Shown here: positions 1,732 to 58,312 of the stretch, in pieces
Position numbering within the stretch: position 1 is the first letter of the stretch
Layout of the letters: each line of letters starts with the position of its first letter
Source of the DNA: Rhizophagus irregularis
Lineage: Eukaryota; Glomeromycota; Glomeromycetes; Glomerales; Glomeraceae
Length of the DNA stretch: 64,000 nucleotides
Direction: 5' to 3'
Assembly (NCBI RefSeq): GCF_026210795.1
Contig: NC_089442.1
Span: 2,914,001 to 2,978,000, forward strand
The notes under the pieces: generated by a model
What the model was told of the DNA's origin: nothing
What the model saw: only the letters and a program-made list of their open reading frames with translations
Databases searched by the model: none
Program-made: the position numbers and the translations under genes

Positions 1732-4700
1732 ATGTCAAAAATCAGCAACAATTTAGAAACATTAATTTCTGAAGGATGTATCGAATATTATGAATATTCT
1801 GATTTTAAAAATATACAACTGATAGGAAAAGGTGCGTCTGGAAGCGTGACTCGTGCTACTTGGAAAGATACTACTACTCGTTTTTTCGCCTTGAAATCTT
1901 TTAATAATGATAAACAAACTCATAAAGAAATTGTTAAAGAGGTATAGTAATATTCAATATTTGAATTATTTTTAAAGTATATGTGAAATTAAAATAATTT
2001 TTATACAATAATCTTGACTGTGTAAAGTTAACACTTCATCGGAAAGTTGATATTCATGAAAATATTTTACGATTCTACGGAATCTCAAGCGTTGAACCCG
2101 GTAAGTATTTAAAATATAGTATAACATTTTGACAAATAATTTAATTACCGTTCCTTTTTTTTAATCCAACATTTTATTTTATTTTATTTTTTTCAGACGA
2201 AATGAATCAGATGAAAAAATACTATTTAGTTTTAGAATATGCAGATAGCGACACATTAAACACGTATTTAAATAATCATTTTGATGAACTTAATTGGAAT
2301 GATAAACTGCGTTTGGCATTTCAATTGACAAGTGCCGTGGAATGTATTCATTGTTGTGGTATTATTCACCGTGACCTAGTAATAACATTTTTTTAATGAA
2401 TTTGAAATTATTTATTTTATTTGCTCAATTTTAACAAAAATTTTTTTTTAATATAATATATAGCATGCCAAAAATATACTTATACATCAGAAAAGTATTA
2501 AATTGGCAGATTTTGGTTTATCAAAAAAAATTTCTGAAGAATCAAGTAACGCGAAAAAAGTATTCGGGGTAGTACCTTATATAGATCCAAAAAGTCTCGA
2601 TGACCAAAAATATAAATTAAATGAAAAATCTGATATATATGGTATTGGTGTTCTAATGTGGCAAATCTCAAGTGGTCGCCAACCATTTAAAGATAAGGGT
2701 TTTGATTATGATGTGCAATTATCTATTGCTATAATTAATGGATTAAGAGAAGAAATTATTGATAAAACTCCCGTCGAATATAGTAATTTATATAAAGGTA
2801 ATTAATAATCTTTTGTTGATATTTAATTGATTTGTATTTTTCAAAAGAACGAATTAAAAAAAATTATTCAATAAATAGAATGTTGGAAAAACGAACCAAA
2901 TAATCGTCCAAATATACAGAAAGTTGTTTTAACTCTTAAAGCAATAATTTCTCCTAAACAAGACAATACAATTAATGAAAATTTTTCAGAAGAGAGTGTA
3001 ATCGATTCATCAGAAAAATATCAAACTATAAGCGATATAATTCCAGATATTAATGAAGATTTATCAATTGACTCAAATATTGGCGTTAATTCCTCAAATG
3101 ATTTCTCAAATGATAAACCAGATATAAGCACACAAAGAAATTCCGCTCAATTAATAAATATAGTCGATTCTAAAAAATCTGAAAGTAGTTCATCAAATGC
3201 ACTAAATAAACGGATAAACCCCTCATGTAGAAATGCGATTGAGTTAGCATTAGAAGAAGATGGATTCACCACACTCGACGAAAAAGCAAAAGAACTTATT
3301 AAAAAATTGACTGAAACTAAATATTTGCAAGCTTTAAAATTACTTATTGAAAACTTGCAAAATGAATTTACACCTCAAATTCTTCGAGATACTTTAGTTG
3401 CTTTAGCAGATCCAACGTCATTTGATTATTACGCAAAACAAAGCGTAGCTAGATTAGAGCTACATTTACGTACATGGGCGGAAGTCCTAGAGAGGGTATG
3501 TTTTTCACCAATGTGTCTTAGTAAAGAACTTCAAGATAAAATTCATAATTCTTTGACAAAATTTGCAGAAATATATCACAAAACAACACAAATAATGGAA
3601 GAAGGATTTGAGAATAATAATTTTAATCTTAATTTTGACCAACAAAATGATGATGACTGTGAAACAATCACCAAAAATCGAAATTATAATATTGAATTTT
3701 TATTAATTCACCTAAGGGATACATTAAATAGCCTGCGTGATGATGAAACTTGGTTTCAAGAAATTATACGAAAAACTAGAGAATTACTTAAGGTTGTCGT
3801 GAATATTGTACCCGGAATTCTAACAGCAACTTCTGAGAATACTACTCTAAATAATAGTTGCTCGATATTATCTATGCTTACTCAATTACGCCAAGGTTTA
3901 AGTTTTAAATATCCAGTAGCAACATATTATATAGATTGGAGAATCATGTTAATCATACAGTATAATCTTCTTAATTGGACTGATAGTTCTGAAAAAATAT
4001 TTAATAAAAAATTTGGAGAAATGTTATTAATGGAATATATCTGGGGCTTTTTAGAAAAAGAATGGATTAATACTGCCGAAAAATCTATTTTAAGTTCTCA
4101 GATGAAATTTGATGAATTATCAAATAAACTTGTTAAATCTTTTAAAAATACTGGTAGTTTCTCAAATAAACCATTTTCACTGCCACATACTTTATGGTTT
4201 GGAATATTGGATATTGCACAAAATCTTATCTTAAGATCCACTCATACAGCAATACATGGACTTGGTTATTACTTAGCAATTGAATCACTTAATAAAGCTC
4301 CAAGTAGTTTCATTCAATTTAAAGCAGTAGAAATATTATTACATCTATATAATATTAACAATGAATTATTTTCAATAATAGAAATTGATTTTGATCAATA
4401 TGTTCAAAAATTAAAAAAAAATAATTTAGAAACAGATCATTTTCAAAATTTGTTATTATTTATGAAAGAAATATGCCTTGAAGATTTTGATATATTAAAT
4501 AAAAGTGCTAAAATCAATAAAGAAAAAGAAGAAAAAGGAAAAGAGAAAGAAAAAATCTTGGATCAAAATTTATATTTAAAAAAAGATCAATTGTCAAATT
4601 ATACCATTTTAGAAACTATAGCAGATGAAATGACTTGTCCAGTTAGTAGTGAACCAACAGATCAACTCTGTATTTTAAAATGTCAACATATATTATCTCT

Positions 4701-6886
4701 GGATAATTTCAAAAAATTAAAACAAAAAAATTGTCCTAAATGTCGAGAAAAAATTGATGATATTGATATCAGATATATTCCACAAAGCACTATTTATAAA
4801 AACTTATATTCTTATCTTTTTGAAGCTGGATATATTTTACCTTTAATTGAATCAGAAGATACACATAATCAATGCAATAGTGATTCAGATAATTCAGAGT
4901 TTGATACTATGTTGATCAAAAAGAAAAGATTTAGATTAAATTCAAGTATATCGTTGCAATCATTCTTTCCAAAAATTTCAAAAAAGCAACATCCAATGTA
5001 TCAGAATGCTATAAAAGAATTAAATGAAAATAATTATGAAAAAACTGAATATTATTGTAAAGAATTTTTGAAAATCTTTCCTACAAATTATATTATAAGA
5101 TGTATTTTAGCTTATACTTATAGGTGTCTTAATAACTATGAACTAGCACATTTATATTTAAAAGAAGCTATTCGTCTAAAAAAAAAGAAACCAATTGCTT
5201 ATTTTATTTGCGGAGAATTATTCTTTAGACAAAGTAATTATGATAAAGCAATATATAATTTGAACAAATCACTGGAATATAAGACAAAAATAAGTAATTT
5301 ATATATAATACTTGGGAATAGTTATATTTATAAAGCAGAATCTTGCAATTATAATAATTATAATAATTATTATTATTATTTATCAGAAGCTTTAAAAAAT
5401 TATAATACCGCTTTACAAAACAATCCATATAATTATTTATGTCTTAAAACTAGTGCATTCATTTATGAAAAGCAAGAATATTATTCTAATGCTTTAAAAA
5501 TGTTAGATAAATTACTAAGTATTAACAAAAATAATTCATTAATGTTATGTTATTATGGAGAAATTTTAAGTTGTATGAATAAGTTATGGTAAGGCTATAT
5601 CATACTTTACAAAAGCAAATATTATTGATCCAAATAACGTTCACTATCTAAATAAGAGAAGTATGGCATATTTTGCTTTTCAAGATGACGATAAATATTT
5701 ATTGGACTTTAAAAAGACCATACAATTAGATCCATTAAATAGTATTGCATACTATTATAAGATATTAATATATATGATAAGATTGAATAATATATATTAT
5801 GACGGACAATCATTTTTAACAAACTATAGTATAGAAAAAAAGGAAAATATTACTGAAACTATTGTAAAATTTGAAAAATGCATAGAATTAGATCATGATT
5901 TTTGGTTGAAATTATGTAAAATTTATGAGATGGAAGAATACAATTTTAATTATCTTGGAATCATTAATAAAATTAATGAATACATGTATAAAGGTAAAAG
6001 AGATTTATATTTTTTTTAATAATAATTAACTTTCTAATTTAATAAATTTACAGTACATAGGGTTTATTTTATATCAAACCTTGTAAATTTGGATGATACA
6101 TATCATCAATTTGAAGAAAGTAATTCAAATAGGTAAGTTATTTATTTTTATTTATTAAATAATCTTTAAATACATTAACATTAATTGATTACTTGTATTA
6201 TTTAATTTAATAAGTCTAACAGGATATGTATTATCTTTTAAAAATGAGGAGAGTTTGAGTTTGGGTTTGCCAAAATTTTCAACGATTTTTGAAAGTTTTA
6301 AATGTTATTGGATCATTTGGAAAATAAATATTAACAAATTATCAGCCAATTGTTTTATAAATTTTGTAATTAAAAAATTTGATTATTTAGATATGGTAAG
6401 TTTTGCTAACTATTAAATTCTTTTTTTAGTTCTTATTTAATTATATGATAATGTTTAAAAAATCAATTTCTACACTCAATAGATGCACAAGCAAAAATTG
6501 GTTCTTACTTATAATGATTTGTCAAAATATGAGAAGTTAGGTTGGGTTGAATTTAAGCTTCCATATGAATTAGATAACATATGGATTAATGGTATACAAG
6601 TTTCGATTGAAATAGAGGGTCTTGTTGACATGGTATATATTATACTTTAATTACCTGTTCAATTATTGTTATATATGTGTCATATATAATTAAAACTTGC
6701 ATTATTATTATTCATTGAATACAGCAAATAGATTATATTAGATTCATCCCATATAAACAGACTAAAACAAGTAATATACTATCAGGTCATAAAGTTTATT
6801 TAAATGTTCCTGAAATTTTCAAGGATAAGTATTTTTCAAGAAAGGAAATGGAGAATTTGCTTGAATTGAAAGACATTATCGGGTAA
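1732..6886 (+). CDS. Protein kinase fused to helical / RING-like / TPR / beta-tail core (frameshifted)
   Basis: My model joins 1732-1941, 2028-2100, 2197-2378, 2464-2797, 2879-5993, 6054-6132, 6215-6395, 6483-6632 and 6725-6886, giving about 1494 residues once one extra base is ignored. Residues 1 to about 290 are a kinase: glycine loop [11 protein letters not shown] lysine, catalytic HRDLHAKN, DFG, and [11 protein letters not shown]; it looks catalytically complete. After a Ser/Asn-rich linker (about 290-385) comes the family core: helical region, RING/U-box-like module near 850, TPRs from about 970, and a beta-rich tail in the last four exons. An extra T at 5584 breaks the frame inside a TPR; removing it restores alignment of the same length to the paralogues. 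The break is either a real lesion or an assembly error. Splice phases in the tail match the paralogues. Kinase family resembles fungal TKL-type kinases; substrate unknown. Confidence 0.85.
5584..5584 (+). other. 1-nt frame disruption in TPR region
   Basis: The frame stops at 5592 just after this base, while the +1 frame continues without a stop from 5585 to the splice donor at 5994 and matches the paralogous TPRs. MNK then [12 protein letters not shown] gives exactly the paralogue spacing if one T of the TT is removed. Confidence 0.85.
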
Positions 6887-10856: not shown

Positions 10857-10859
10857 AAT

Positions 10860-15872: not shown

Positions 15873-15880
15873 TATAAATA
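15873..15880 (+). promoter_or_regulatory. TATA-like box of the F-box gene
   Basis: TATAAATA, about 127 bases before the ATG at 16007, followed by a long T run and then an A-rich leader. The T run fits a fungal core promoter, but this is positional evidence only. Confidence 0.4.
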
Positions 15881-16006: not shown

Positions 16007-18094
16007 ATGAGTAAAAAAAATTCACAACATTCACAACATTCAGTTATATTAAATGTTGACATTCTTCCTTTAATATTAACATATTTTTCAGATGATGTTA
16101 AAAATCAGTATGATATTAGAGACCAATATGAAATATATAATTGTTTATTTATACATTCAACTTGGACTAAAGTAAGTTTTTTATATTATTAAAAAAAAAA
16201 CGGTTTTTTTTTTAAGAAAAAAAAAAAAAAAATTCCCACAAAAAAAAAAATCCACAAAATTAACGAAAAATTAAATTTTTTTTTTAGATATTTACAAAAA
16301 TCTTATGGAGTTCTCCAATATGGAAGTCCCCACGGTCATACAAAAAATTCTTGAATACATTAAGAGAGGAAAATACATTATATAATTACAGTCAGATGAT
16401 AAGACATCTTACATTCGCACCATATAGAAACCGACCTCAACCTTCATTTTCACTTCCTGATATACATTTACTCTCACAAAAATGTTTCAATATAACAAAT
16501 CTCACATTTGGACATAGGGAAGGTGATATAATTCCACCAGAAGGAATTTTATTATTATTAAAAAAAAATCATAATATACATTCAATAAAATTTTTAACAT
16601 TACATTTTGATGAAAAATGGTTGAATAAAGCATTAATACCAATAATTAATGGACATTGTTTAAAATTAGAAGAACTTATATTTTACGATCCTCAACAAAA
16701 AGATGTTCAACAACAACAACAACAACCAACAACATCAAAAGATTTAAGTTTTAATTTCCTTTATTCTATTGGAAGAAAATGTAAATCAATAAATTCTTTA
16801 GAAATTAGACCAAAAATATCAAATACAAACGCTTTAATGATAATAAAATTTTTTCCTAATTTAACCTCGTTAAGTGTAAAAACAATAGAACCCGAGGCTC
16901 TTAAAACTCTTTTACAAGGGTTTCCAAATTTAGAATCTTTCTCATTTTCTTTTCCTAAATCAATTTCAAAAGAAATGACAATAGAAATAGCAAAAGAATT
17001 CCCTCCTTTAGAAAATTTTTCTACTTCTTTAGATTTAGATACAACTTCAACTTTTATTAGTACCTTTGTTACTACTCAATCGAAACTTAAAAAATTAGAA
17101 TTATTTAAATGTTCAAATTTATTCGATTCGGATTTAAATTTATTATCCGAATTTTGTAATCAATTAGAATCTATTAATTTAAGTTTTTGTAATAATTTAT
17201 CTGATGTTTCGATATCTTCCCTAACTCAAAAAAATCGTCAACTTAAAAAAATTCATCTTACAAATATACCAAAATTAACGAACAAAGGTATTTTATCTTT
17301 AGTAAATAATTGTCCTAATTTAATATCATTCATATTTAATATTTATTATGAAAGCGATAATAATGGAGGAATGATTGGAGGCGGAGGCGGAGGTGGTAAT
17401 GGTGGTGATGTTGGTGATGTTGCTAATCGTCGACGAAGTTTTATTCAAAATCAAATAACTTCTATGGCTTTCATTCATCTATTACAAAATTGTAAAAAAT
17501 TAATGGAATTTTCTGGTCATTTCTCCGATAATACCGCTTCAAAAATTTTATTTGAATTATCTAAAAAAAGACTTTACGGTAGAGGTTCTTATTATAAGAA
17601 TCTTGAAATTTTAAAAATTCTTCCAAATGGACGTGCTTGTTTATTTAAAACTCAATTAGAATTAAAACCGGAACAAAATTCTGAATCTGAATTATTAGGA
17701 AATTTAGCGGAAAATTGTAAAAATTTAAGGATTTTGGTATTAAAATGTAATTTTTCAAAATTAAATAGGAATGTAAGTATAAAAAAAATTTATTTTTTGT
17801 TTTTATTTATTTATTTATTTTTTTTTAAGAAAATGATATTAACTTTTTTTTCTTTCTTTCTTTCTTTCAAAAAAAAAACAGTCCTTTATTAAGAGTATAC
17901 TTAAATTTAAAAATCTTGAGGAATTATCGGTTAAATTAAAATCAAATCAATCTTTATCGGATAGTCATTTAAAAAGATTATTATCACATCCAAAATTAAG
18001 AGAATGTGAATTAGGTGATTCTCTTACTAAAGATGCTAAATTATTTATTAAAAATTATAATAATAATTCTCGAGGTGGTCCTTATTTTTATTAA
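16007..18094 (+). CDS. F-box / leucine-rich-repeat protein
   Basis: Three exons, 16007-16171, 16288-17772 and 17882-18094, give about 620 residues. Introns are GT-AG with T-rich ends and phase 0. The N-terminus has an F-box-like stretch (VDILPLILTYF at about 17-27, then CLFIHSTWTK and W..PIWKSP). From about residue 90 onward repeated leucine-rich units of about 25 residues occur (LTSLSVKT, LESFSFSF, LKKLELFKCSNL, LESINLSFCNNL, LKKIHLTNIPKL), as in FBXL/AMN1-type proteins. Low-complexity inserts are a poly-Gln run and a Gly-rich loop. F-box proteins serve as substrate receptors of SCF ubiquitin ligases; the target here is unknown. The second exon alone looks like a complete frame, but its first codon is TTG and the true start is in exon 1. 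Reading past 17772 enters an intron. Confidence 0.85.
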
Positions 18095-21669: not shown

Positions 21670-21692
21670 GTAAGTTGTTTCTAACAACTTAC
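21670..21692 (+). repeat. Perfect hairpin, 10-bp stem
   Basis: GTAAGTTGTT, three-base loop TCT, AACAACTTAC. The inverted copy of the repeat keeps both arms intact at 60301-60323, but its loop (read in the same sense) is CCT. It sits 35 bases before the conserved core. Confidence 0.8.
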
Positions 21693-21726
21693 AGATCTTT
21701 GATAATTGTCATTCCATAGTTCCATC

Positions 21727-21840
21727 ATGCCGTACGTAGAAGGAAATAACGGATGGAGTTTCTTTTTCGTCCGGCTTGTCCATGTAAGCCCAGATACGTC
21801 GGTCCGCCTGCGTACTGTGGTTGCCCGGATAGGTAGTTGA
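21727..21840 (+). CDS. Conserved 37-codon open frame in the dispersed repeat (uncertain)
   Basis: An ATG-to-TGA frame beginning MPYVEGNNGWSF and ending RTVVARIGS. The second copy (60153-60266, minus) has the same length and start and stop, with only two differences seen, both amino-acid changing (E/G and F/L). The opposite strand is also open over much of this block, so which strand, if any, is translated is unclear. No family recognised. It may be a conserved terminal or structural part of a mobile element rather than a gene. Confidence 0.35.
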   Translation: MPYVEGNNGWSFFFVRLVHVSPDTSVRLRTVVARIGS

Positions 21841-22165
21841 GCATATATAGATTAGAAAAATATTTACTGTAATTTTCTTTATTTCTTTTTGTTGCTTTTC
21901 TTTTTATCTTATTTTCATTTTTATTTTTTGTCTTCTTGTTTTCATTATTTTTTTCGATATATGTATATATTTTTTGATGTATTTATACTATTTTGTAATA
22001 GAATAGAATTAGTTTAGCAAGGGTAACGTACGGAGGAATTATAGAAGTCATTAAGGAGAAACTGGCTTTCCTGGAGGAGGGTTAGCCTATGCACCTGGCT
22101 CCTATCATAGAATAATTAGTATTTTTTTTTTTTTAAAAAAAATAATACTAAGATTTTCTTTATTA

Positions 22166-27630: not shown

Positions 27631-30600
27631 TCATCCTGTAATATCTTTTAATTCAAGCAAATTTTCCATTTCTTTTCTTGAAAAAAACTTATCCCTGAAA
27701 ACTTCTGGGACATTTTTATAATTTGACGATAGCATATTATCTATTTTAGTTTTTTCTTCATTATATTGTTCTTTATATTTGAATTGATGAAATCGAACAT
27801 AATCTATTTGCTAAACAAAGAGAGTAATGATATAAATAATAATACTTATTATATATAGAAACAATAAACTAAACAAGTAATTATAATATAAAGTATACCA
27901 TCTCAGTAAGATTATCCAATTCAACAGAAAGTTGTACCGAATAATTGTATTTCCACTTTATATATGGAAATCTATATTCAATCCAACCTAATGAATTAAA
28001 TTTTAACAGATCTTCATATATAAGGATATGTTCCAAATTTTTATTGCAATCCTCCTATTAATTACAATAATTGGCTTTCAGTTTAATATATGATATACAG
28101 TATTATAAAATAAGAGAATATTAAACTTACATCATCAATTATTACAAATTTTATGAAACATTTATTGGATGATAAGTTTTTAATATTTATTTTTAAATAA
28201 AAGTAATAGTATGCATCGTTTTTAAAAACTCCTGAAATTTTGGGCAAACTCAAATTAAATGTTTGATTTTTAAAGTTTAATATATATCCTGTTAAGCTTT
28301 AATTTTTAAATTGTTAATTAATATAATTAATTTGAAATTAGTACTTAATGTTAAATATGCATAAATAATTAACTTACCTATTTGGATCACTTTCTTTAAA
28401 TTTTAAATATACACTATCCAAATTTATAAGGTTTGAAAGAAAATAAATCCTATGTACTGTAACATTATTAATAATCAAGTTAATTACTGGTGAATAATAA
28501 AGAATTAATATTTTCTTTACCTGTATACATGTATTTATTAAATTTATTAATAATTCCAAGATCATTAAAACTGTTTTCATATAAGTGTGACCAAAAATCT
28601 AGATCTAAACCCATAAAATCTTTCATTATATCATTTATATATAAGTGTGACCAAAAATCTAAATCTAAACCCATAAAATCTATCATTATATCATTTTTTG
28701 TTTTTATCTTATAATATGTCATATTTTCATAAACATTATTTAATTCCATAATATATATTAATGCTTTATAACAATATGCTATACTATTTAATGGATTCAA
28801 TTGTATAATCTTATTAAAATCAAATAAAGACCTATCATATTCTTGAAGTTTGAAATATGCAATAGCTCTCTTACTCAAATTATGAATATTTTCTGGATCA
28901 ATAGTGTTTGCTTTTGTAAAAAAATGTATAGCATTATGATATCGTGTCATATTATATAAGATTTCTCCATAATAACATAACATTAATGAATCATCATCAT
29001 TAATACCAAGCAATTTATCTAACATATCTAAAGTATTTGAATAAGTTTCCCGCTTTTCGTAAATATATGCGCTATTCTTTAAACATAAATAGTTATTTGG
29101 GTTATTTTGTAAAGCAATATAATAATTTTTTAAAGCATCTGATAGATAATATTCATCATAATTATAAAATTCTGCCTCAAAAAGATTACTATTTCCAAGT
29201 ATTATGTATAGATTATTTATTTTTGCCTTACATTCTAACGACTTATTTAAATAATATATAGCCTCATCATAATTACTTTGCTTGAACAATATTTCTCCAC
29301 AAATAAAATAAGCAATTGGCTTTTTTTCATTTAAATTAATAGCTTCCTTTAAATATAGATGTGCTTGCTCATAATTATATAGACATCTATATGTATAAGC
29401 TAAAATACATCTTATAGTATAACTTTTAGGAAAAATTTTCAGAAATCCCTTACAAAAGTACTCAGCTTTTCCATAATTTTTTTCACTTAATTCTTTTATG
29501 GCATTTTGATACACTGGATGTTGCTTTTTTGAAATTCTTGGAAAGATTGATTGTAATGATAAATTCGAATTCAGCTTGATTGAATTCATAAATTTCTTTT
29601 TTTTAGATAATATAAGATCGAATTCTGAGTTATCCGAATTATCACTCTCATACTGATTATCAATTATTTGACTCGAATCTTCCAATTTAATAGAAGGGAA
29701 AATGTACCCAGATTCAAAAAATTTTGAATATAAATTTTTATAAATAGAATTTTGTGGCAAATATCTAATATCATTATTTTCAATTCTTTTTCTACATTCA
29801 GGACATTTTTTTTGTTTTAATTTTTTTAAATTACTTAATGATAATGCATGTTGGCACTTTAAAATACATAGTTGATCTGTTGGTTCACTACTAATTGGGC
29901 AAGTCATTTCACCTGCTATAACATCTAAAATATTAGAAGTTGATTTTTGTTCCTTCATAAAATTAGAATTTGAATTTGTAATTTTTCCTTTTCCCTTTAT
30001 CTCCTTTCCAATATCATCATCATCTATAATTTTTAAATCTTCAAAATATTTTTCTTTAACAAATATTAACATATTTTGAAATTTTTCTGAAAAATCTGCT
30101 AGTTTATTTTCATTTAATTTTTGAGCATAATGATCAAAATCAATTTCAACCATTGAAAACTCTTGACTTTCAATATTTTGTAAATGTAATAATATCTCAA
30201 TTGCCTTAAATTGAATGAAACTGCTTGGAGCTCTATTAAGTGATTCAATCGCTAAATAATAACAAAGACCATATGTAGCTATTCTAGTAGATTTCTGGAT
30301 AAGTTTTTGTGCAAGATCCAGTATTCCAAACCATAAGGTATGTGGTAGGACAAGAGGTTCATTTCCAGCGAGATCATTTATAACACTTCCGGTATTTTTC
30401 AAAGCTTTAATGACTTTATTTGATACTTCATCAAATTTGGTTTGAGAATCTAAAATTGATTTATTATCAACATTAATCCATTCTCTTTCCAAAAAGCTCC
30501 ATATATATTCCATCAATACCAATTCTCCAAATTTCTTACTAATAATCATTTCAGAACTTTCAGACCAGGAGAAAATATTGTGTTGAACTATCAACATAAT

Positions 30601-31463
30601 TCTCCAATCTACATAATAGGATGCTACGGGATACTTAAAGCTTAAGGATTGATGTACTTGAGCAAGCATTGACAGGATTGAACAATTATCATTTGGAAGG
30701 GCAATCCCTGTTGTTGATAAAATCCCTGGTGCAATATTCAATAAAACCTTAAGCAAATCTTTAGTCCTTCGTAGAATTTCTTGGAACCAAGTCTCGTCAT
30801 CACGTAAACAATGTAATGTGTCCCGCAAGTGAATTAGTAAGAAATCAATGTTATAATTTCGCTTCTTAATTATAGTATCATCTTTTCTAACTTGGAGTTG
30901 ATTAAATTGATTAAAATTAGATGCATATTTGTTATCAATACCTTCTTGCATGACCTGAGTTGTTTTTCTATGAATTTCAGCAAATTTTGGCAAAGAATTA
31001 TAAATTTTATCTCGAAGTTCTTTACTTAAACGTATTTGTGTAAAACAAACTTTTTCTAAAACCGCTACCCATGCACGTAAATGTAGCTCTAATCTAGCTA
31101 TACTTTGTTTTGCATAATAGTCAAATGGTGTTGGATCAGCTAAAGCGACCAAAGTATCTCGAAGAACTTGAGGTGAAAATTCATTTTGAGAGTTTTCAAA
31201 AAGTAATTTAAGAGCGTATAAATAATTTGGTTTTGTCAGATTTTTCAATAATTCTTCTACCTTCTCATCTAGAGTATACTGTTCTAACTTGAGAAGGATA
31301 CGATTATTGAACATGTTTTCATGTAAATCCGTTTTATTAGTGTTTATAGAACTTCCGCTCTAAAATAAATAAATAAATTGCAAAAACAATTTAAATTTTT
31401 AATTATTTAAAATGCAAAATGTTTCCTAAAATTATAACCTACCTGAATTGAGCTTCCATCCAT
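27631..31463 (-). CDS. Helical / RING-like / TPR / beta-tail family protein
   Basis: Model: complement of join 27631-27810, 27899-28054, 28131-28296, 28378-28456, 28521-31359, 31443-31463, about 1146 residues with no frame break. Exon 1 encodes MDGSSIQ; the large exon has an apparent start MFNNRILLKL at 31314, but the upstream exon is conserved in the paralogues. Residues about 25-480 are helical with [13 protein letters not shown] and [17 protein letters not shown] blocks. A Lys/Gly hinge precedes a RING/U-box-like module near 490-540 ([18 protein letters not shown], then CPECRKRI). TPRs follow from about 610. The beta-rich tail ends [14 protein letters not shown]. Compared with the plus-strand paralogues it lacks about 100 residues after the last TPR and has instead a 20-residue tandem duplication. 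Likely intracellular; function not known. Confidence 0.88.
28581..28700 (-). repeat. In-frame 60-bp tandem duplication inside the family gene
   Basis: Units 28581-28640 and 28641-28700 differ at only a few positions and encode two copies of a 20-residue block around DFMGLDLDFWSHLY. The paralogues have a single equivalent FWSHL-type segment. The period of 60 keeps the frame, and near identity suggests a recent event. Confidence 0.9.
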
Positions 31464-38137: not shown

Positions 38138-41100
38138 ATGAATGAAAATTCAAATCAGGTAAATTCAGTTACAAAAGATAATTATTTTAGTTAGCTTAAA
38201 AATTGATTAACTCACTTATATTATATATAGAGCGAAAGTCATTCCCAAAATACTGTATCTGCTCTTGAAAATTTAGAAATTGACAATTCGATTTCGTGTA
38301 AACAGGCTTTGCATGTAAAAACGTCAAGACATAGTATCCTTCTCAAATTAGAAGTGGATGGATTTATTACGCCTGACAAAAAAGTGAAAGAACTTATCAA
38401 GGAATTAACAGGAATAAAATATTTATTTAACTTAAAATTACTTTTTGAAGATTTGCAAAATGAATTTTCAAATCAAGTATTAATAGATTCATTGGTCGCT
38501 TTAGCAGATCCTGCTCCATTTAATTTATATTATTCGAAAGAAGGTGCGACTAGATTAGAAGTGCATTTACGTACATTGATAGCGGTATTAGAAAGGATAT
38601 GTTTCTCCCCAATACGTCTTACTAAGAACTTTCGAGATAAAATTTATGATTCTTTGACAAAATTTGCTGAAATACATCGTAAAACTACTCAAGTAATTGA
38701 AGAAGGACTTGAAAATAACTTTAGATCTAACTTTAACCAATTTAATCAACAAAAAGATGATAAATCTGATGAAAAAATTGCTAAAAAACGAAATTATAAT
38801 ATTGATTTTTTATTAATTCATCTGAGGGATACCTTACATAGTCTTCGTGACGATGAAACCTCGTTTCAAGAATTCATACGAAGAAGTAGAGATTTACTTA
38901 AAACTGCATTGAATATTACACCAGGAATTTTAACAATAACAGGAGTTAATCTTCCAAATGATAATTGTTCAATCTTATCAATGCTTAATCAACTACGTCA
39001 AAGTTTAAGTTTTAAGTATCCAGTAGCTTCTTATTATGTAGACTGGAGAATTTTATTGATAATTCAACACAATCTTTTCATTTGGTCTGAATGTTCTGAA
39101 AAGATAATTAGTAAAAAATTTGGAGAAATATTATTGATGGAATTTATATGGAGCTTTTTGGAAAGAGAATGGATTAATATTACTAATAAATCCATTTTGG
39201 ATTCTCAACCCAAATTTGATGAAGTATCAAACAAAGTTATTAAGGCATTGAAAAGTGCTGGAAGTTTTTTGAGCGATCTTTCTGGAAATGAACCACTTGC
39301 ATTACCATATGCTTTATGGTTTGGATTATTGGATCTTGCACATAGTCTTATCCAAAAATCTACCATAAGAGCGATACATGGCCTTTGTTACTATTTGGCA
39401 ATTGAATCACTTAATAAAGCTCCAAGTAGCTTCATTCAATTTAAAGCTATTGAAATATTATTATATTTACATAATAATGATAGTCAAATGTTTTCAATGA
39501 TTAATGACGATTTTGATCACTACATACAAATGTTAAGTAAAAATAATTCTGTAGATTCTTCAGAGAAATTTCAAAAATTATTAAAATTTGTTAAAGACAA
39601 ATATCTCGAAGATCTAAAAATTCTAAATGATGATATTGGAAAAGAAAAAAAAGGAAAAGGAAAAGAAAAAGGTTCAAATCAAAATACATATATAGTAAAT
39701 GAACAAACATCAAATTCTAATATATTAGATGCTATAGCAGATGAAATGACTTGTCTAATTAGTATGGAACCAATTGATCAAATATGTATTTTAATATGTC
39801 AACATACATTATCATTAAATAATTTAAAATTATTAAAACAAAAAATATGTCCTAAATGTCGAGAAAAGATTGAAGAAAATGACATCAGATATTTACCACA
39901 ACATTCAATTTATAAAAATTTATACACCAAATTTTCTGAATCTGGATATATTTCACCTCCAATTGAATTAGAAAATTCCAATCAAATATATAATAGTGAT
40001 GATTCAGGTAATTCAGAAGCTGAACTTATACTAAATAAAAAGGAGAAAATTTTAAATATTAAACTAAATTCAAATATATCACTATCATCAATACTTTCAA
40101 GATTTTCAAAAAAACAACATCCAAAATATCAAAGTATTATTAAAGAATTAAATGAGAAACACTATAAAAAGGCTGAAACTTTATGTAAAGAGTTGTTGAA
40201 TTTTTATCCTAAAAGTTATTCTTTAAGGTGTATATTGGGTTATATTTATAGATGTCTAAATAATTATGATCAAGCGCATTTATATTTGAAAGAGGCTATT
40301 GATTTAAAACAAAAAGAACCAATTGCTTATTTTATTTGTGGAGAAATATTTTTTCAACAAAATGAATATAGTAAAGCAATAAATAATTTAGAAAGGTCAT
40401 TATTCTATAATGTTAAAATAAATAATTCGTATATAGTACTTGGAAATAGTAATTTTTTTGAGGCGGAATCCTATAATTATGATGAACATTATTTATTAGA
40501 TGCTTTAAAAAATTATGAGATTGCATTAAAAAATGATCCAAATAATTATTTATGTCTTAAGAGTTGTGCATATATTTATGACAAAAATAAAGATTATTTT
40601 AAAGTACTAATAATATTAGATAGGTTACTAAATATTAATAATGAGGACTCCCTGATTTTATGTTATTATGGAGAAGTATTGTGTAAGATAGGTCTATTTA
40701 GTGATACAATATCATATTTTACAAAAGCAAATGATATAGATCCAGAAAATATCCATAATTTAAATAAGAAAGCTATTGCATATTATACTCTTCAAGATTA
40801 TGGTAAAGCTTTATTTGAACTTGATAAAGTTATACAATTAGATCCATTAAATAGTTTAGTATATTATCTCAAGTGTCTAATTTATTATACGAAAAAAGAT
40901 ATTGATAATGCTATAATGGTATTTGAAAAGTGTAAAAAATCATTAGATCTTAATGATATATTAGCAAAAACTCTACTATTTCATCTGGAATATTTACTGA
41001 ATAGAAATAATTCTACAGAATTAAATAATATATTAACAAGAATTACTAATCAAATTTCTAATATTGATAATATTGAAAATAGTCGATCACTACTTTTTAT

Positions 41101-42189
41101 TAGATGCAAAATATATATAGATTTAAAAATGTACCATGAAGCAAAATCAGATTTAGATATGTTATATCATACTAATAGAGGTTATTTTTCTGAATACATC
41201 CCATATATATATTTATTACAAGAACATGAGAAGTTTTGGTCACATCTAAATAATTATAATAACATTGATCTTTCCAAATTTGGAATTGTTAATGATTTTA
41301 GCAAATACATGTATAAAAGTAAGAAGAAATTTAATTTATTAATTTCTTATATTAAATAATGATTAATGTACTAATCAATAATGAATTATTTTAGAAACGC
41401 AAGTTTTTTAATGACAAACTTAGTAAATTTGGATAATAAGCTTGGTCAATTTCAAGAAAGTGATACAAATAGGTAAGTTCCATCTATTTGTATATTATTT
41501 ATAAGTTTTAATATAAAGCTAATCTAATTTGTTATTTTAAAATCCAAGTTTATCTGAGAAAGTAATTGACTCTAAAAATGAAAAACTTTATTTGGATTTA
41601 CCTACACTAAATAATAATAAGTTTGCATATGTTATTTGGAAAATAAATATTAAGAAAATATTACCTGGAAATTGCTTTATAAAATTTAATGTCGAAAAAA
41701 TTGTAAGTTAATTAATTTTAAAATCCCTTTTATTACTATCAAAAAATGTTACTTTTAATTAATGAATAAATTTAATTATAGGATAATACTCATTACGAAC
41801 ATATTTTAAAACATGAAGATATATTGAAACTTGAAGGATTAGGTTGGATTGAATATCAGCTTCCAAAATGTGAAACGAATCTTCATATTTCAATTGAAGT
41901 AAATGGTCCTATTAATGTGGTATATTTCTACTTTACTTAGGACTTCTATTCTTTAAAAAGGAATTAATCTAAATAACTCATCATTATTCATTGATTTATA
42001 TAGCAAATAGATTATGTTCGGTTTGGATATAACAATGAAATAATAACTTACATTCCTAATATGGGCGATTTGTTACCAAACTATCATAAAGTTTGTCCAA
42101 ATGTTCCAGAAATTTTCAAAGATAAATACTTTTCAAGAAAAGAAATGGAAAACTTGCTTGAATTGAAAGATATAATAAACCACTTATAA
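38138..42189 (+). CDS. Helical / RING-like / TPR / beta-tail family protein (frame break before the tail)
   Basis: Model: 38138-38158, 38231-41318, 41395-41472, 41549-41702, 41782-41919, 42004-42189. Exon 1 encodes MNENSNQ. The frame that seems to begin at 38309 starts with TTG and is only part of exon 2. The helical region covers about 35-450, a GKEKKGKGKEKGS hinge near 480, and a RING/U-box-like module near 510-560 in which the usual CP is CL and LKCQH is LICQH. TPRs follow from about 635 to 1000. The third exon is 78 nt where the paralogues have 79 or 82, missing one T in the T run at 41404-41409, so the tail goes out of frame; without splicing the product ends at 41359 with about 1049 residues. 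The later tail exons are intact ([24 protein letters not shown]). Confidence 0.85.
41395..41472 (+). other. Exon with probable 1-nt deletion
   Basis: Aligned with the same exon in the kinase-fusion, minus-strand and 54256 genes (79 nt each), this one is 78 nt. The frame before the T run reads KTQV and the frame after it reads TNLVNLDNKL; one added T would join them. Confidence 0.8.
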
Positions 42190-45200: not shown

Positions 45201-45212
45201 TACTCTGAATTA

Positions 45213-45507: not shown

Positions 45508-45519
45508 TACTCTGAATTA

Positions 45520-47734: not shown

Positions 47735-50700
47735 ATGGATGGAAGCTCAAGCCAGGTAAATTATACTTTAAGTAGAAATTTAGGCATGTTAATCAATAAA
47801 CCTAGTTTATAACATTATTTATTATAGAGTGGAAGTACTTTTAGCAATGCTTTCTCCTCTCCTATAGAAATTAATAATTCTGTTTCATATAAACCGGCAA
47901 GAAATAGTATCCTTCTCAAATTGGAGGAGGATGGATTTATTACGCCTGACGAAAAAGCAAAAGAACTTATCAAAAAATTAACTGGAATAAAATATTTATT
48001 TATTTTAAAATTACTTTTTGAAGATTTACAAAACGAATTTTCAAATCAAGTATTAATAGATTCATTAATCGTTTTAGCGGATCCTGCTCCTTTTAATTTA
48101 TTTTATTCAGAAGAAAGCGTGGCTAGGTTAGAATTGCATTTACGTACATTGATAGCGATATTAGAGAGGGTTTGTTTCTCCCCAATACGTCTTACTAAGT
48201 ACCTTCGAGATAAAATTTATAATTCTTTGGCAAAATTTGCTGAAATCCATCGTAAAACTACTCAAGTAATTGAAGAAGGACTTGAGAATAACTTTAGATT
48301 TAACTTTGATCAATTCAATCAACAAAAAGATGATAAATCTGATGAAAAAATTGCTAAAAAACGAAATTATAATATTGATTTTTTATTAATTCATCTGAGG
48401 GATACTTTACACAGCCTTCGTGATGATGAAACCAGATTTCAAGAATTTAGACGAAGAATTAAAGATTTGCTTAAGACTGCATTGAATATTACACCAGGAA
48501 TTTTAACAATAACAGGAGTTAATCTTCCAAATGATAATTGTTCAATCTTATCAATGCTTAATCAAGTACGTCAAAGTTTAAGTTTTAAGTATCCAGTAGC
48601 TTCTTATTATATAGATTGGAGAATCATGTTAATAATCCAACACAATCTTTTCATTTGGACTGAATGTTCTGAAAAGATAATTAATAAAAAGCTTGGTGAA
48701 ATGGTATTAATGGAATTTATATGGAGCTTTTTAGAAATAGAATGGATTAACATTACCAATAAATCTATTTCGGAATCTCAACCCAAATTTGATGAAGTAT
48801 CAAACAAAGTTATTAAGGCTTTGAAAAATACTGGAAATTATTTAAACGATCTTTCTGGAAATGAGCCTATTGCATTACCATATACTTTATGGTTTGGATT
48901 ATTGGATCTTGCATATAACCTTATCCAAAAATCCACTCGAAAAGCAACACATGGTCTTTGTTATTATTTGGCAATTGAATCACTAAATAAAGCACCGAGT
49001 AGTTTCATTCAATTTAAAGCTATTGAAATATTATTACATTTACATAATATTAATAGTCAAATGTTTTTAATGATTGATGATGATTTTGATCACTACATAA
49101 AAATGTTAAATAAAAATAATTTAGTAGGTTCTTCACAAAAATTTCAAATATTATTAAAATTTGTTAAAGACAAATATCTTGAGGATTTAAAAATTTTAAA
49201 TGATAATATTGGAAAAGAAAAAAAAGGAAAAGGAAAAGAAAAAAATTCAAATCAAAATTCATGTATAATGAAAGAACAAAAAGCAAATTATATTATATTA
49301 GATGCTATAGCAAATGAAATGACTTGTCCAATTAGTAAGGAACCAATTGATCAATTATGTATTTTAAAATGTCAACACTTATTATCATTAAGTAATTTAA
49401 AAATGTTAAAACAAAAAATATGCCCTCAATGTCGAAAAAAAATTGATGATAATGATATCAGATATTTACCACAGACTTCTATTTATAACAATTTATATTC
49501 AAAATTTTCCAATTTTGGATATATTTCACCTACTATTGAAATAGAAAATTCAGGTCAAATGCAATATGATAGTGATGATTCAGATAATTCAGAAATTAAT
49601 CATATATTAACTAAAGAAAAGAGATTTAAGAATCCATTTATTAAATTAAATTCAAACATGTCATTATCATCAATAGTTCCGAGATTTACAAAAAAACAAC
49701 ATCCAACATATCAAAATATTATAAAAGAATTAAATGAGAAACACTATGAAAAAGCCGAAACTTTATGCAAGGAATTTTTAAATTTTTTTCCTAAAAGTTA
49801 TTCTTTAAGATGTATCTTGGGTTATATTTACAAATGTCTAAATAATTATGAACAAGCGCATTTATATTTAAAAGAGGCTATTAAATTAAAACTAAAAGAG
49901 CCAATCGCTTATTTTATTTGTGGAGAAGTATTTTTTTGGCAAAATAATTATGATGAAGCTATATATTATTTAAACAAATCATTAGAATATAAGACAAAAA
50001 TAAATAATTTACATATAATACTTGGAAATAGTAATCTTTTTGAGGCGGTATCCTATAATTATGATGAATATTATTTATTAGATGCTTTAAAAAATTATGA
50101 GACTGCATTAAAAAATGACCCAAATAATTATTTATGTCTTAAGAATTGTGCATATATTTATGAAAGAAAAAAAGATTATAAAAATGCTTTAATATTTTTA
50201 GATAAATTAATAAGTGTTAATGAGAAGGATTCATTGATTTTATGTTATTATGGAGAAATTTTGTGTAATATTAAACAATATAATAACGCCATTTCATATT
50301 TTACAAAAGCAAATATTATAGATCCAGAAAATGTTTATAATTTGAAAAAGAGAGCTATTGCATATTATTATCTTCAAGAATATGATAAAGTTTTATCAGA
50401 TCTTGATAAAATTATTCAATTGGATCCATTAAATAATACAGCATATTATCTCAAAAGTATAACATATTTTACAAAAAATGATATTAGTAATGCCAAAATA
50501 GCTTTCAATAAGCTTACAGAATTATTAAATTCTAATGATACAATTATAGAAAAGGAACAATTATTTTATTTAGAATATTTGTTGAATAAAAATAAATTTA
50601 CAGAATTAGATAACATATTGACAAAACTTAATCAAATTTCAAATATTAAAATTAGCAAGACACTGCTTTTTATAAGATGTATTATATATATTGAATCAGA

Positions 50701-51747
50701 AATATACCATAAAGCAAAATCAGATTTTAATATGTTATGTGAATCAATATCTATTAATAATTGTATTTCATATATTTATTTTTTACAAAAATATTTAAAT
50801 TTTTGGTCATATTTAGTTAATGGTTATAATATAACTTATATTGGAATTATTGATTTTTATGGTGCATACTTGTATAATGGTAAGTGGACACTTAATATAC
50901 TGTTTTTGCCATTAAAATTAATTAAAATTGACATATTTGATTATAAATTTATTTTAGAAAAAAGGGTTTATTTAATTTCAAACTTAATAAATTATAATAA
51001 GATATATTATAGTCAATTTCAGGAAAGTGATCAAAATAGGTAAGTCCTATTTATAGTATTGTTAATTTAAAATTCTATTCATTATTAATTATGTTTTTAA
51101 AAATCTAAGTTTATCAGGTCAAGTATTTTATTCCAAAAATAAAGAACTTCATTTAAATTTTCCTATACTAAGAAATAGTGGCAGATGTATTTGGAAAATA
51201 GATGTTAAAAAGATAATATCCGAAGATTGCTTTATAAAATTTACAGAAGGGAATGTAAGTTTTTTTATTGAAATCTACTGTCTTGTTTTTACGAAATTAT
51301 ATTTTCAAATTAATGTCTAAATTTAATTATAATTCCTTGATAATTTTGGAAGAATGAACATACTTTAAAATATAATGATGTGTTAAAATTTGAAGGATTA
51401 GGTTGGATTGAATGTAGCATTCCAATCAAAAATAGTTCATCGATTCCAAAACTTTCAATTGAAATAAATGCTATCAATATGGTATATTTACTTCTTTATT
51501 TATTCAAGATTCATTTTCTGATAACTTTAGCTTATTATTTGTTATTTTTTGATTTATTTAGAAAATAGATTATATTCGATTTGGACATAATGAAGAAGAG
51601 ATAACTTACATTTCTAATATGAATTATTTGTTGCCAGATTATCATGAACTTTACCCGGGCATTCCAAAAGCCTTCAAAGATAAATACTTTTCAAAAAAAA
51701 AGATGGAAAACTTGTTTGAATTAAAAGATATCCTTGACAGCTTATAA
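47735..51747 (+). CDS. Helical / RING-like / TPR / beta-tail family protein
   Basis: Model: 47735-47755, 47828-50879, 50958-51039, 51110-51254, 51353-51481, 51562-51747, about 1204 residues without a frame break. Exon 1 encodes MDGSSSQ. Helical region about 35-450 with ADPAPFNLFYSEE and RDTLHSLRDDETRFQE; RING/U-box-like module near 505-555 ([26 protein letters not shown]); SDDSDNSE acidic spacer near 590; TPRs from about 630. The intron after 50879 happens to be open in frame, so a retained-intron form would read on to 51043 and stop. The fifth exon appears to use a shifted acceptor (GGAAG at 51352), since the usual TATAG site is mutated to TATAA. The tail ends MENLFELKDILDSL. Confidence 0.87.
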
Positions 51748-53739: not shown

Positions 53740-54255
53740 GTTACATTAAATTGATGCATTGTAATCGAATATAGTTAAAACAATCATTTAATTCATGAAA
53801 TTAATAGAAATTTAATATTTCTCTTAATTCTCTTATAAAAAACAAAAGTCCTGGATCTTATTTTATTTCCTCTTTCTGAAAGTAACATTTTATCACTTTC
53901 GGAGTTCTTGTACTACGCCATATTAATAATATTTTCTGTAACACGTTACATTCGTTACAATAGTTACATTAAATTTAATGATGTGCTTGAATGACATGTG
54001 ACATGTACGTTATTGCGCCACATACCTTTTGATTGTAATTTTACTTAATTCGGTTAGAAAATAAACTTATTTAAATAATTGTAGACCTCCTACAAGATTA
54101 GAAATATTATTCAAGGTTGGGTTTCTTAATATTTTAATACCTGACGAGATAATAATTATTTTATATTTTGATATTATTATATTTATTTTGCGACAAAAAA
54201 AAAAAAGAAAAAAGCTCAAATATTTACCAAAAATATACATTGACAGAGATAAATA
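53740..54255 (+). promoter_or_regulatory. Upstream region shared with the 38138 gene
   Basis: Second copy of the upstream block described at 37450-38137, without its roughly 170-base extra segment. It runs right up to the shared GACAGAGATAAATAATG around the start codon. Confidence 0.75.
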
Positions 54256-57200
54256 ATGGATGGAAGTTCAAGTCAGGTAAATTCAGTTATAAATTTAAAG
54301 CAGAATTTATTTATTTTAATCAGGTTAGAAAAATTGTTTAACTCATTTATATTATATATAGAGTGGAAGTTCTTCCTATAATACCGTTTTTGCACTTGGT
54401 AATTTAGAGATCGACAATTCTGTTTCGTATAAACAGGCTTTGCATGTAAAAACGTCAAGACATAGTATCCTTCTCAAATTAGAAGAGAATGGATTTATCA
54501 CGCCTGACGAAAAAGCAAAAGAACTTATCAAGGAATTAACTGGAATAAAATATTTATTTAACTTGAAGTTACTTTTTGAAAATTTACAGAACGAATTTTC
54601 AAATCAAATATTAATAGATGCATTAGTCGCTTTAGCGGATCCTGCTCCATTTAATTTATTTTATTCAAAAGAAAGTGCGGCTAGATTAGAATTGCATTTA
54701 CGCACATTGATAGCGGTATTAGAGAGGATATGTTTCTCTCCAATACGTCTCACTAAAGACCTTCGAGATAAAATTTATAATTCTTTAACAAGATTTGCTG
54801 AAATTCATCGTAAAACTACTCAAGTGATTGAAGAAGGACTTGAAAATAACTTTAGATCTAACTATGATCAATTTAAGCAGCAAAAGGATGATAAATCTGA
54901 TGAAAAAATTGCTAAAAAACGAAATTATAATATTGATTTTTTATTAATTCATTTGAGAGATACTTTACATAGTCTTCGTGATGATGAAACTTGGTTTCAA
55001 GAAATTATACGAAGAATTAGAGACTTGCTTAAAACTGCATTGAATATTACGCCAGGAATTTTATCAGCAATAACAGGAGCTAATCTTCCAAATGATTGTT
55101 CAATCTTATCAATGCTCAATCAGGTTCGTCAAAGTTTAAGTTTTAAATATCCAGTAGCTTCTTATTATATAGATTGGCGAATTATGTTGATTGTACAACA
55201 CAATCTTGTCATCTGGTCTGAATGTTCTGAAATGATTATTAGTAAAAAATTCGGAGAATTAATATTGATGGAATATCTGTGGAGCTTTTTGGAAAGAGAA
55301 TGGATTAACATTACTAATAAATCTATTTTAGACTCTCAAACCAAATTTGATGAAGTATCAAACAAAGTTATTAAGGCTTTGAAAAATACTGGAAGTTTTT
55401 TGAATGATCTTTCTGGAAATGAACCTCTTGCATTACCATATACTTTATGGTTTGGAATATTGGATCTTGCGCATAACCTTATTCAAAAGTCTACTCGAAA
55501 ATCCATACATGGTCTTTGTTATTATTTGGCAATTGAATCACTTAATAAAGCTCCAAGTAGCTTCATTCAATTTAAGGCTATTGAAATATTATTACATTTA
55601 CATAAAATTGATAATCAAGTATTTTCAATGATAGATGATGATTTCGATCACTATATACAAATATTGAATAAAAATAATTCTTTAGATTCAGAAAAATTTC
55701 AAAAATTATTGGAATTTGTTAAAAACAAATATCTTGAAGATTTAAATATTATATATGATAATACTGAAAAAGAAAAAAAAGGAAAAGGAAAAGAATTAAG
55801 TACCAATCAAAATTCATGTATAATAAGAGAACAAACACCAAATTCTATTATATTAGATGCTATAGCAAATGAAATGACTTGTCCAATTAGTAGTGAACCT
55901 ACGGATCAATTATGTATTTTAAAATGTAAACATGCATTATCATTAAATAATTTAAAAAAGTTAAAACAAAAAATATGCCCTCAATGTCGAAAAAAAATTG
56001 TTGATGATGATATCAGATATTTACCACAGTCTTCTATTTATAATAATTTATATTCAAAATTTTCTAAATCTGGATATATTTCACCTTCTATTGAATTGAA
56101 AAATTCAGATCAAGTTCAACGTGATAGTGATGATTCAGATAATTCAGAAATTGATCTTATACTAACTAAAAAGAAATTTAAGAATCCATTTATTAAATTA
56201 AATTCATCAAACAAATCATTATCATCAATAGTTCCAAGATTTACAAAAAAACAACATCCATTATATCAAAATATTATAAAAGAATTAAATGAGAAACACT
56301 ATGAAAAAGCTAAAACTTTATGTAAAGAATTTTTAAATTTTTTTCCTAAAAGTTATTCTTCAAGATGTATTTTGGGTTATATTTATAGATGTCTAAATAA
56401 TTATGAACAAGCACATTTATATTTAGAAGAGGCTATTAATTTAAAGCCAAAAAAACCAATTGCTTATTTTATTTGTGGAGAAGTATTTTATTGTCAAAGT
56501 AATTATGATGAAGCAATATATCATTTAAATAAATCATTAGAATATAAGACAAAAATAAATAATTTATATATAATACTTGGAAATAGTAATCTTTTTGAGG
56601 CAGAATCTTTTAATTTTGATAAATATTATTTATTTGATGCTTTAAGAAATTATGAAACTGCATTAAAAAATGACCCAAATAATTATTTGTGTCTTAAGAA
56701 TTGTGCATATATATATGAGAGAAAAAAATATTATCAAAATGCTTTAATATTTTTAGACAAATTACTAAGTATGAATGAGAATGATTCATTGATTTTATGT
56801 TATTATGGAGAAATTTTATTTAAAATGGGAAAATATAATAACGCCATATCATATTTTACAAAAGCAAATATAATAGATCCAGAAAATATTCATAATTTGA
56901 AAAAGAGAGCCATTACATATTATGATCTTCAAGAGTATGATGAAGTTTTATCAGATATTGATAAAGTTATCCAATTTGATCCATTAAATATTTTGGCATA
57001 TTATCTTAAAATTCTAGCATATTATACAAAAGGAGATATTAATAATGCTAAAATAGAAATAAAAAAGTGTATAGAATTAATATTAAATTCCAATTATAAT
57101 ATTTTAGAGAAGACACAATTTTTTTATTTAAAATATTTACTGGAAAAGCATGAATTCACAGAATTGATGTATATAAAATTAAATCAAATTTCAAATACTA

Positions 57201-58312
57201 AAAGTAGGGAGACACTGCTTTTTATAAGATGTAGTATACATATTAAATTAAGAATGTACCATACAGCAAAATCAGATTTTAATATGTTATGTGAATCAAT
57301 ATCTATTTATAGTTGCATTTCATATATTCACTTATTACAAAAATATTTAAATTTTTGGTCATATTTTGCTGATGAATATGGAGCTTTATTAAGTAATATT
57401 GGAATTATTGATTATTATAGTGCATACTTGTATATAGGTGAGTGAACACTTAAATATACTACTTTTGCTATTAAAATTAATTATTATTGACATATTTGGT
57501 TAAAATTTATTTAGAAAAAGAGATTTATTTAATTTCAAACTTAATAAATTATAATAAGATATATTGTCAATTTCAAGAAAGTGATCCAAATAGGTGAGAA
57601 CTATTTATAGAATTGTTTAATTTAAAAAATTCTAAGCATTAATAATTGTGTTTTATAATTCAAGTTTATCAGGTCAAGTACTTTGTTGCAAAAATGGAGG
57701 AATTCGTTTAATTTTTCCTGTACTAGATTTTTATGACGGGTGTATTATTTGGAAAATAAATGTCAAAAAGATAATATCTGAATCTTGCTTTATAAAATTT
57801 GGAGAAAAAAATGTAAGTTTTTATTAAAATCTATTTTATTTGCAATAATATCTTTTTAAATTGATGTTTATATTTAATTATAGTCCCATAACTCCAGTTA
57901 TATTGGATGGAATGTGCACATATTAAAATATAGAGATGTGTTAAAATTTAAGGGATTAGGTTGGATTGAATGTAAGATTCCAATTGAACTTGATTTCCGG
58001 AATTCACATCTTATAATTGAAATGAATGCTATTGATATGGTATATTTTGTTATTCATTTATTCAGGTTCCAGATTGAAGTAGCTTTAACTCATTATCATT
58101 ATTTTTGATTTAAATAGAAAATAGATTATATTCGATTTGGGTATAATGAGGAAGAGATAACTTGCACTCCTAATATGAGTTGTTTGTTACCAGATAGTCT
58201 AGATTATCATGAATTTTACCCGAGCATACCAGAAGCCTTCAAAGACAAATACTTTTCAAAAAAAGAAACGGAAAATTTTTTTGAGTTAAAAGATATCCTT
58301 GACAATTTATAA
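54256..58312 (+). CDS. Helical / RING-like / TPR / beta-tail family protein
   Basis: Model: 54256-54276, 54362-57437, 57515-57593, 57665-57812, 57884-58039, 58118-58312, about 1224 residues without a frame break. Exon 1 encodes MDGSSSQ; the frame seeming to begin at 54440 starts with TTG inside exon 2. Order: helical region about 35-460, hinge KEKKGKGKE near 485, RING/U-box-like module about 510-560 ([26 protein letters not shown]), acidic SDDSDNSE spacer near 600, TPRs about 637-1000, beta-rich tail about 1033-1224 with LGWIECKIP and KIDYIRFGYN. N-terminus and 5' flank resemble the 38138 gene, whereas TPR end, tail and 3' flank resemble the 47735 gene. RING/U-box plus TPR would suit a chaperone-linked ubiquitin ligase, but zinc ligands are incomplete and this is inference. 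Confidence 0.88.

Follow-up and report, generated by a model that had tools for sequence, protein, structure and literature searches.

A clustered gene family of Rhizophagus irregularis with a helical platform, a single-zinc RING-like module and tetratricopeptide repeats, mostly headed by a starter exon or a kinase

The window analysed here is a stretch of 64 kb of the genome of Rhizophagus irregularis (contig NC_089442.1, positions 2,914,001 to 2,978,000; GC content 21-31% in 4-kb blocks), which harbors five copies and two relics of a gene family with a common order of parts, namely a helical platform, a RING-like block, an array of tetratricopeptide repeats (TPRs) and a tail. This order is shared by five long exons, each followed on its 3' side by small tail exons, the last of which ends in a [10 protein letters not shown]-type block, and the whole set spans 1732-58312, from the kinase ATG of copy 1 to the stop codon of the final tail exon of copy 5. 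The five copies are 59-79% identical to each other across the shared part, and platform, RING-like block and TPRs are the regions in which their frames align. The original prediction, made from the window alone, had described five long genes and two relics with a common architecture and a set of named sequence blocks; all of these blocks were found in the window copies, and the five long exons and both relics are there, but copy 1 is frameshifted. The family is large and real, and what is new in it is an undescribed platform domain, together with kinase and starter ends that are unusually scattered over its members.

Copy 1 (long open frame 2875-5592, plus strand) is the only one of the five with kinase exons upstream (1732-1941, 2028-2100, 2197-2378 and 2464-2797, with splice boundaries placed by eye), which read into the big exon at 2880. 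The Lys of ALKSF, HRDLH and DFG are all present in the joined exon pieces, and the single exon 2464-2796 matches Pfam Pkinase at 2.2e-15. The big exon (2880-5592) encodes the end of the kinase, a linker, the platform, the half-RING and the first TPRs, and its frame is broken within the TPR array, where it ends at 5592 and the remainder follows in another frame (5579-6016), hence copy 1 is not an intact long gene. The TPR continuation, which is out of frame, and the tail exon frames together occupy 5579-6883 (tail at 6189-6413, 6483-6647 and 6719-6883). The kinase that had been predicted at the head of the architecture thus exists in copy 1, but the remaining four copies open with a starter exon of 21 nucleotides. 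Copy 2, on the minus strand, has its starter at 31443-31463 (MDGSSIQ), a big exon at 28480-31359 with platform, half-RING and TPRs, which is shortened 3' of the TPRs, and tail exons at 27634-28298. Between copies 1 and 2, also on the minus strand, are the two tail relics, one with post-TPR fragments and tail exons (26182-25085) and the other with a post-TPR-like fragment, recognized by eye at 24192-24034, and two tail exons (24192-23358).

The other three copies are all on the plus strand. Copy 3 consists of a starter at 38138-38158 (MNENSNQ), a big exon at 38231-41359 and tail exon frames at 41541-41708, 41782-41937 and 42004-42189; by eye, the tail has one additional short exon ahead of the three noted earlier, which lies near 41395-41473 in this copy. 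Copy 4 has a starter at 47735-47755 (MDGSSSQ), a big exon at 47828-51043 and tail exon frames at 51066-51747. In copy 5, the starter (54256-54276, MDGSSSQ) is spliced in phase 0 to 54362, and the big exon frame (54362-57445) holds the helical platform at 54461-55801 (residues 34-480 of the big exon), the half-RING module at 55844-56086 (ligands C522, H524, C539 and C542, with C507 as unpaired first Cys) and the TPR array at 56246-57091 (Pfam TPR_2 4e-22, with TPR matches in the PDB), followed by tail exon frames at 57636-58312 with the final block FELKDI.

Searched with the big exon of copy 5, the genome (146,748,485 bases in 32 contigs) gave at least 46 matches (45 of 161 candidates scored), and with the platform alone 88 (91 of 91 candidates scored), while the RING block and the last tail exon gave 60 and 74, respectively. 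With 88 platform matches in the genome, chance is excluded as the source of the shared architecture. These matches merge into about 67 loci, of which 45 are open over 900 amino acids or more, with no stop inside the match, a rough count that includes copy 1, frameshifted past its first 905 codons, and omits L006, which is open over 1016 amino acids and was merged with adjoining fragments. By the same rough merge, about one third of the loci (22 of 67) are broken or short. Contig C14 carries 21 of the loci, and 30 of the 67 lie no more than 50 kb from another, compared with 3.1 on average and 12 at most when loci were placed at random on one line 500 times, which bears out the prediction of a clustered, locally duplicated family. 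Forty-six loci were read, five in the window and 41 fetched; they were picked mostly as long and open, so that the fractions given below are biased towards intact copies. Three of them (L001, L002 and L003, on other contigs) are divergent paralogues with 28% identity to copy 5 over the alignment, yet their parts still run from platform through RING to TPRs, and the TPR arrays of L001 and L003 are longer. Their upstream stretches, as far as fetched, gave no kinase, and no match to the last tail exon adjoins them, although a diverged tail could escape detection. The order kept in these three implies that the chassis predates the recent expansion, and tail and kinase look like later additions to it, as judged from one genome. 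No confirmed relative was met in bacterial/archaeal or viral contigs, searched with two short peptide patterns each. Among the remains of the family, a decayed member at C13:602414-603952 has matches full of stops and appears to be an old dead copy, three orphan tails (L042-L044), read from the genome matches to the last tail exon, fall in relics or fragments, and one of these (L043, C26:2863300-2867200) is a relic made up of post-TPR-like and tail fragments, beside which an open frame of 161 amino acids (1566-2051) looks unrelated.

The RING-like block has a distinctive set of zinc ligands. C522, H524, C539 and C542 (C-x-H...C-x2-C) are invariant in 46 of 46 copies, including the three paralogues of 28% identity, and C507 is Cys in 45, but the second Cys of site 1 (C507+3, the second ligand of a RING) is present in none of the 46; the full two-site pattern is absent, and only the distal (second) site is kept. 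A profile of seven diverse RING copies, run against the PDB with hmmsearch, matched 149 sequences at E up to 10, and the best 60 of these 149 are nearly all named RING proteins or E3 ligases, among them TRIM5 (7.4e-6), TRIM21 (9.4e-6), TRIM25 (3.2e-5), RMND5A (0.0036) and yeast RMD5 (0.0044). Taken together, the invariant ligands, the universal absence of the second site-1 Cys and the PDB profile match identify the block as a RING with one zinc, of the kind known from Gid2/RMND5 and SP-RING proteins, and not a U-box. U-boxes carry no zinc, and a U-box is contradicted by four zinc ligands conserved throughout, so that of the RING/U-box-like module predicted earlier the RING stands, with its distal site, and the U-box falls. 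Ile or Val occupies C507+2 in all 46 copies, and Arg follows the last Cys (CPxCR) in 44; both positions would be contacts to the ubiquitin-conjugating enzyme (E2) or to ubiquitin, and the residues of RMND5A that match the first of them, I338/L339, bind E2 (PMC9180843). The predicted link to ubiquitin is also supported, in that the profile match makes the module ubiquitin-ligase-like by sequence. One copy, L036 (C28:2958321-2962969), has Asp for the first RING Cys yet keeps the four zinc ligands, and offers a natural test of the role of C507 in zinc binding.

The platform, of about 450 residues, lies directly 5' of the single-zinc RING. No Pfam family was found for it among the matches listed, and none of the best 60 of 95 PDB profile matches falls outside the RING, except phosphoenolpyruvate carboxylase at E 1.1; for three proteins NCBIfam gave only TPR-type models, apart from weak ones. 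Structure prediction, which had been proposed earlier as a check, was run but gave models of low confidence: those of the five window proteins have a mean predicted local distance difference test (pLDDT) score of 45, with an all-helical platform at low confidence, and the RING, modelled alone from one sequence without an alignment, reached a mean of 43. A Foldseek search with the first low-confidence model returned mostly TPR or other helical-repeat proteins among the best 50 of 1403 matches. The assignment of the RING therefore rests on its sequence profile and that of the TPRs on Pfam, where the predicted TPRs pass the cut-offs in all five window copies (TPR_2 3e-8 to 4e-22) and have PDB TPR matches too. 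For the tail, one spliced tail gave no PDB match, and Pfam was empty for this same tail and gave a single sub-threshold match (0.026) for the other; its predicted beta-rich character is a judgement made by eye. As the original prediction had supposed, no named family with the whole order appears among the Pfam, NCBIfam and PDB matches listed or in the literature in so far as titles and abstracts under open licence cover it, and the order may sit unnamed in an orthogroup table.

The most likely reading of the family, which we consider probable from the sequences at hand, is that of a ligase chassis with optional kinase control. Several points weigh against it. No single protein exceeds any Pfam RING cut-off among the matches listed, which for L001 are 25 of 32 families, the best value for the RING segments being that to Rtf2 (PF04641; 0.00031, in three of seven segments, and 0.0069 for copy 2), below the cut-off; the structure models are poor (mean pLDDT 45 and 43); one copy in 46 (L036) has Asp at C507, and Gln replaces the CPxCR Arg in two of 46; the position of the RMND5A-type linchpin, matched by an alignment made by eye, is mostly Ser and is Lys or Arg in 3 of 46; and the same zinc ligands would also be compatible with a SUMO-type ligase or an inactive scaffold. 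If the half-RING were structural and the proteins were adaptors held by platform and TPRs, the loss of one zinc site in all copies read (second Cys in 0 of 46), the 22 of 67 loci that are broken or short and the non-basic linchpin position in 43 of 46 would be accounted for, but so dead a family seems unlikely given Ile or Val at C507+2 in every copy, the CPxCR Arg in 44 of 46 and the low ratio of nonsynonymous to synonymous substitution (dN/dS) of the RING (0.31). Moreover, Gid2 holds a single zinc and is an active E3, and loss of a zinc ligand abolishes activity (PMC9180843). In human RMND5A, I338/L339 serve in E2 binding and R340 is the linchpin (PMC9180843). A family of small ubiquitin-like modifier (SUMO) ligases of SP-RING-like type, instead of ubiquitin ligases, appears still less likely: the SP-RING keeps the distal zinc site, as here, and the UBR4 hemiRING the proximal one (PMC10873205), and yeast MMS21 is among the PDB matches (E 0.22), but the best of these matches are ubiquitin RINGs (TRIM, RNF8, then RMND5A), and no PINIT, SAP or SP-RING family occurs among the Pfam matches listed.

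Selection differs along the chain. Pooled over 12 hand-picked pairs, mostly sister copies and with copy 5 in two of them, dN/dS is 0.27 for the platform, 0.31 for the RING, 0.52 for the acidic linker, 0.59 for the TPRs and 0.81 for the post-TPR part; platform and RING are constrained, and the TPRs and the C-terminal part are looser. Single pairs reach 1.6 (TPR) and 3.7 (post-TPR) on small counts, and in none of 10 individually realigned pairs is nonsynonymous change significantly in excess in one part or the other (the lowest p values, 0.069 and 0.098, both belong to the post-TPR part). Within the TPRs, mean entropy over six repeats of copy 5, with two repeats left out, is 0.93 at the positions taken to line the ligand groove, 1.21 at other non-consensus positions and 0.68 at consensus positions (p for an excess in the groove 0.977). 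A diversifying TPR groove is thus not supported in the six repeats tested. Variability in the TPR region peaks in a block of 20 residues (741-760, mean entropy 2.06), which falls in a repeat left out of this test. That the groove is conserved and the outer face relaxed suggests a partner common to the copies, with room for a variable site elsewhere.

These data bear on whether the family could be one of polymorphic intracellular receptors, akin to nucleotide-binding leucine-rich-repeat (NLR) or allorecognition proteins, whose copies vary a binding surface for different ligands and signal through the RING or the kinase. The local clustering (30 of 67 loci with a neighbour no more than 50 kb away, with a random mean of 3.1 and a largest value of 12), the looser TPR and post-TPR parts (0.59 and 0.81, with single pairs up to 1.6 and 3.7), a variable block and a post-TPR part outside the groove test, and the kinase in some copies would all suit such receptors. 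The reading is nevertheless unlikely, as the groove is not hypervariable in the six repeats tested (0.93 against 1.21 elsewhere, p 0.977), 0 of 10 pairs have a significant nonsynonymous excess, and no NACHT, NB-ARC or similar domain of signal transduction ATPases with numerous domains (STAND) was met among the Pfam matches listed. The receptor-like role in the original prediction hence finds no support in the groove; no search was made for signal peptides or transmembrane segments.

The 5' end of the family exists in two forms. The starter exon, of 21 nucleotides or 7 residues (consensus MEGSSSQ; 27 nucleotides in L007 and L027), lies 49-94 bases 5' of the big open frame in 32 of the 46 copies, counted where 4 or more of the 7 residues are alike, and the addition of copy 3 (MNENSNQ) by eye makes 33. 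It precedes 33 of 37 young kinase-less copies and none of the 6 kinase carriers or the 3 divergent members; in four young kinase-less copies (L028, L029, L034 and L038) neither form was found. Three of the window starters fit one 24-base pattern that was derived from them and had no match in 100 shuffles. The kinase is present in 6 of the 46 copies, with HRDLH and DFG in all six and the A-L/I-K lysine in five, the region not having been recovered in one piece in L037, and the nearest kinase exon outside the family is 73% identical to the fused kinase.

On the tree of the bodies, a quick tree with Shimodaira-Hasegawa-like approximate likelihood-ratio (SH-aLRT) support only and a partial row for L040, the kinase label requires four changes. 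A single kinase fusion with plain descent was rejected, with p-values of the approximately unbiased test (p-AU) of 0.023 for the six carrier bodies as one clade and 0.034 for five of them. Since the carrier bodies are not one clade, the 5' module has been swapped between copies or lost more than once. A kinase tree of 34 loci, six from the family and 28 others hand-chosen from the upper list of kinase matches with some skipped, joins five family kinases in one clade (96/92) and places that of copy 1 outside, but a clade of all six is not rejected (p-AU 0.212), so that the captures number one or two. We infer that a kinase was captured once or twice and was then either transferred between copies or lost repeatedly, in the latter case with the starter form persisting beside it, and prefer transfer because the starter is alike across lineages throughout the young members of the tree. 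In the kinase tree L030 is the partner of L037 (99/98), whereas in the body tree L037 goes with L040 (97); these three loci share a stretch of about 30 kb on C14, and the conflict fits recombination between neighbours, with caution for the partial L040. The family may have a swappable front, in which paralogues recombine at a single splice junction and thereby bring a ligase of conserved platform and single-zinc RING under the control of a kinase or free it from that control, an idea that we regard as possible, if on the doubtful side. If true, the fungus would possess a set of ubiquitin- or SUMO-ligases that are gated by signals and built on an undescribed platform fold. Two alternative 5' ends scattered over recent paralogues are in any case a good subject for the study of domain shuffling.

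For the ligase chassis with optional kinase control, a mechanism can be proposed. Platform and single-zinc RING would recruit a charged E2 (of ubiquitin, or possibly SUMO), the TPR array would hold a partner or a class of substrates through its conserved groove, and the C-terminal part would supply a second, looser contact. Most of the copies read begin with the 7-residue starter exon; in a minority, the starter is replaced by a kinase from the very large kinase set of the genome, and this kinase would phosphorylate the ligase or its client. E2 recruitment, partner binding by the TPRs and kinase control are thus proposed steps, while domain order, copy number, zinc-ligand conservation, the selection gradient, the starter exon and the scattered placement of the kinase in the body tree are observed. 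The unmatched platform would then be a new helical partner for a single-zinc RING.

Two further features of the window lie apart from the family. A single open frame of 534 amino acids at 16288-17892 (plus strand) has leucine-rich-repeat character, with only a sub-threshold Pfam match (0.066), and an inverted pair of short repeats at 21684-22014 and 59924-60309, with frames 74-95% identical, is perhaps a mobile element.

Among known systems, several share one part or another of this architecture. Like the RING finger of Rtf2 (PF04641), which gave the best single Pfam value (0.00031, yet below the cut-off), the block is a reduced RING, but Rtf2 is not known to have a platform or TPRs. CHIP/STUB1 likewise unites TPRs and an E2-recruiting module in a single protein, but in the opposite order and with a zinc-less U-box, and no carboxylate-clamp pattern was seen by eye in the TPR positions listed here. 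Plant U-box proteins with a kinase domain (as in Medicago) join a kinase and an E2-recruiting module in one chain, but have a true U-box and a different order and origin. In the layout of the RING, the family resembles Gid2/RMND5A, a subunit of the GID/CTLH E3, in which a single-zinc RING also stands directly behind a helical region and has the ligand type C-x-H...C-x2-C (PMC9180843); however, the profile match to RMND5A/RMD5 covers the RING only, no LisH, CTLH or CRA domain is among the Pfam matches listed for eight proteins, the RING of Gid2 is C-terminal (PMC9180843) whereas here the TPRs come after it, and a core subunit stands against about 67 loci. SP-RING SUMO ligases (Siz/PIAS, MMS21) keep the distal zinc and have lost the proximal one (PMC10873205), as in this family, but no SP-RING, PINIT or SAP is among the Pfam matches listed, and the PDB match is weak (0.22). 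The hemiRING-UZI of UBR4 is also a single-zinc RING packed with a helical domain, but retains the proximal zinc, not the distal (PMC10873205). In Rhizophagus itself, reported expansions include kinase, Sel1, BTB, Kelch, BED zinc finger, orphan and other families, none listed with the order platform, RING, TPR in the excerpts (PMC8647823, PMC6123716), and a Glomeromycotina family combines likeness to MLKL with Sel1 repeats (PMC8778642). The fused kinase is of the kind expanded in this fungus (PF07714; 73% identity to the nearest exon outside the family). A total of 2,533 kinases has been counted (PMC10234402), and a family that joins such kinases to a ligase module would give them a testable output.

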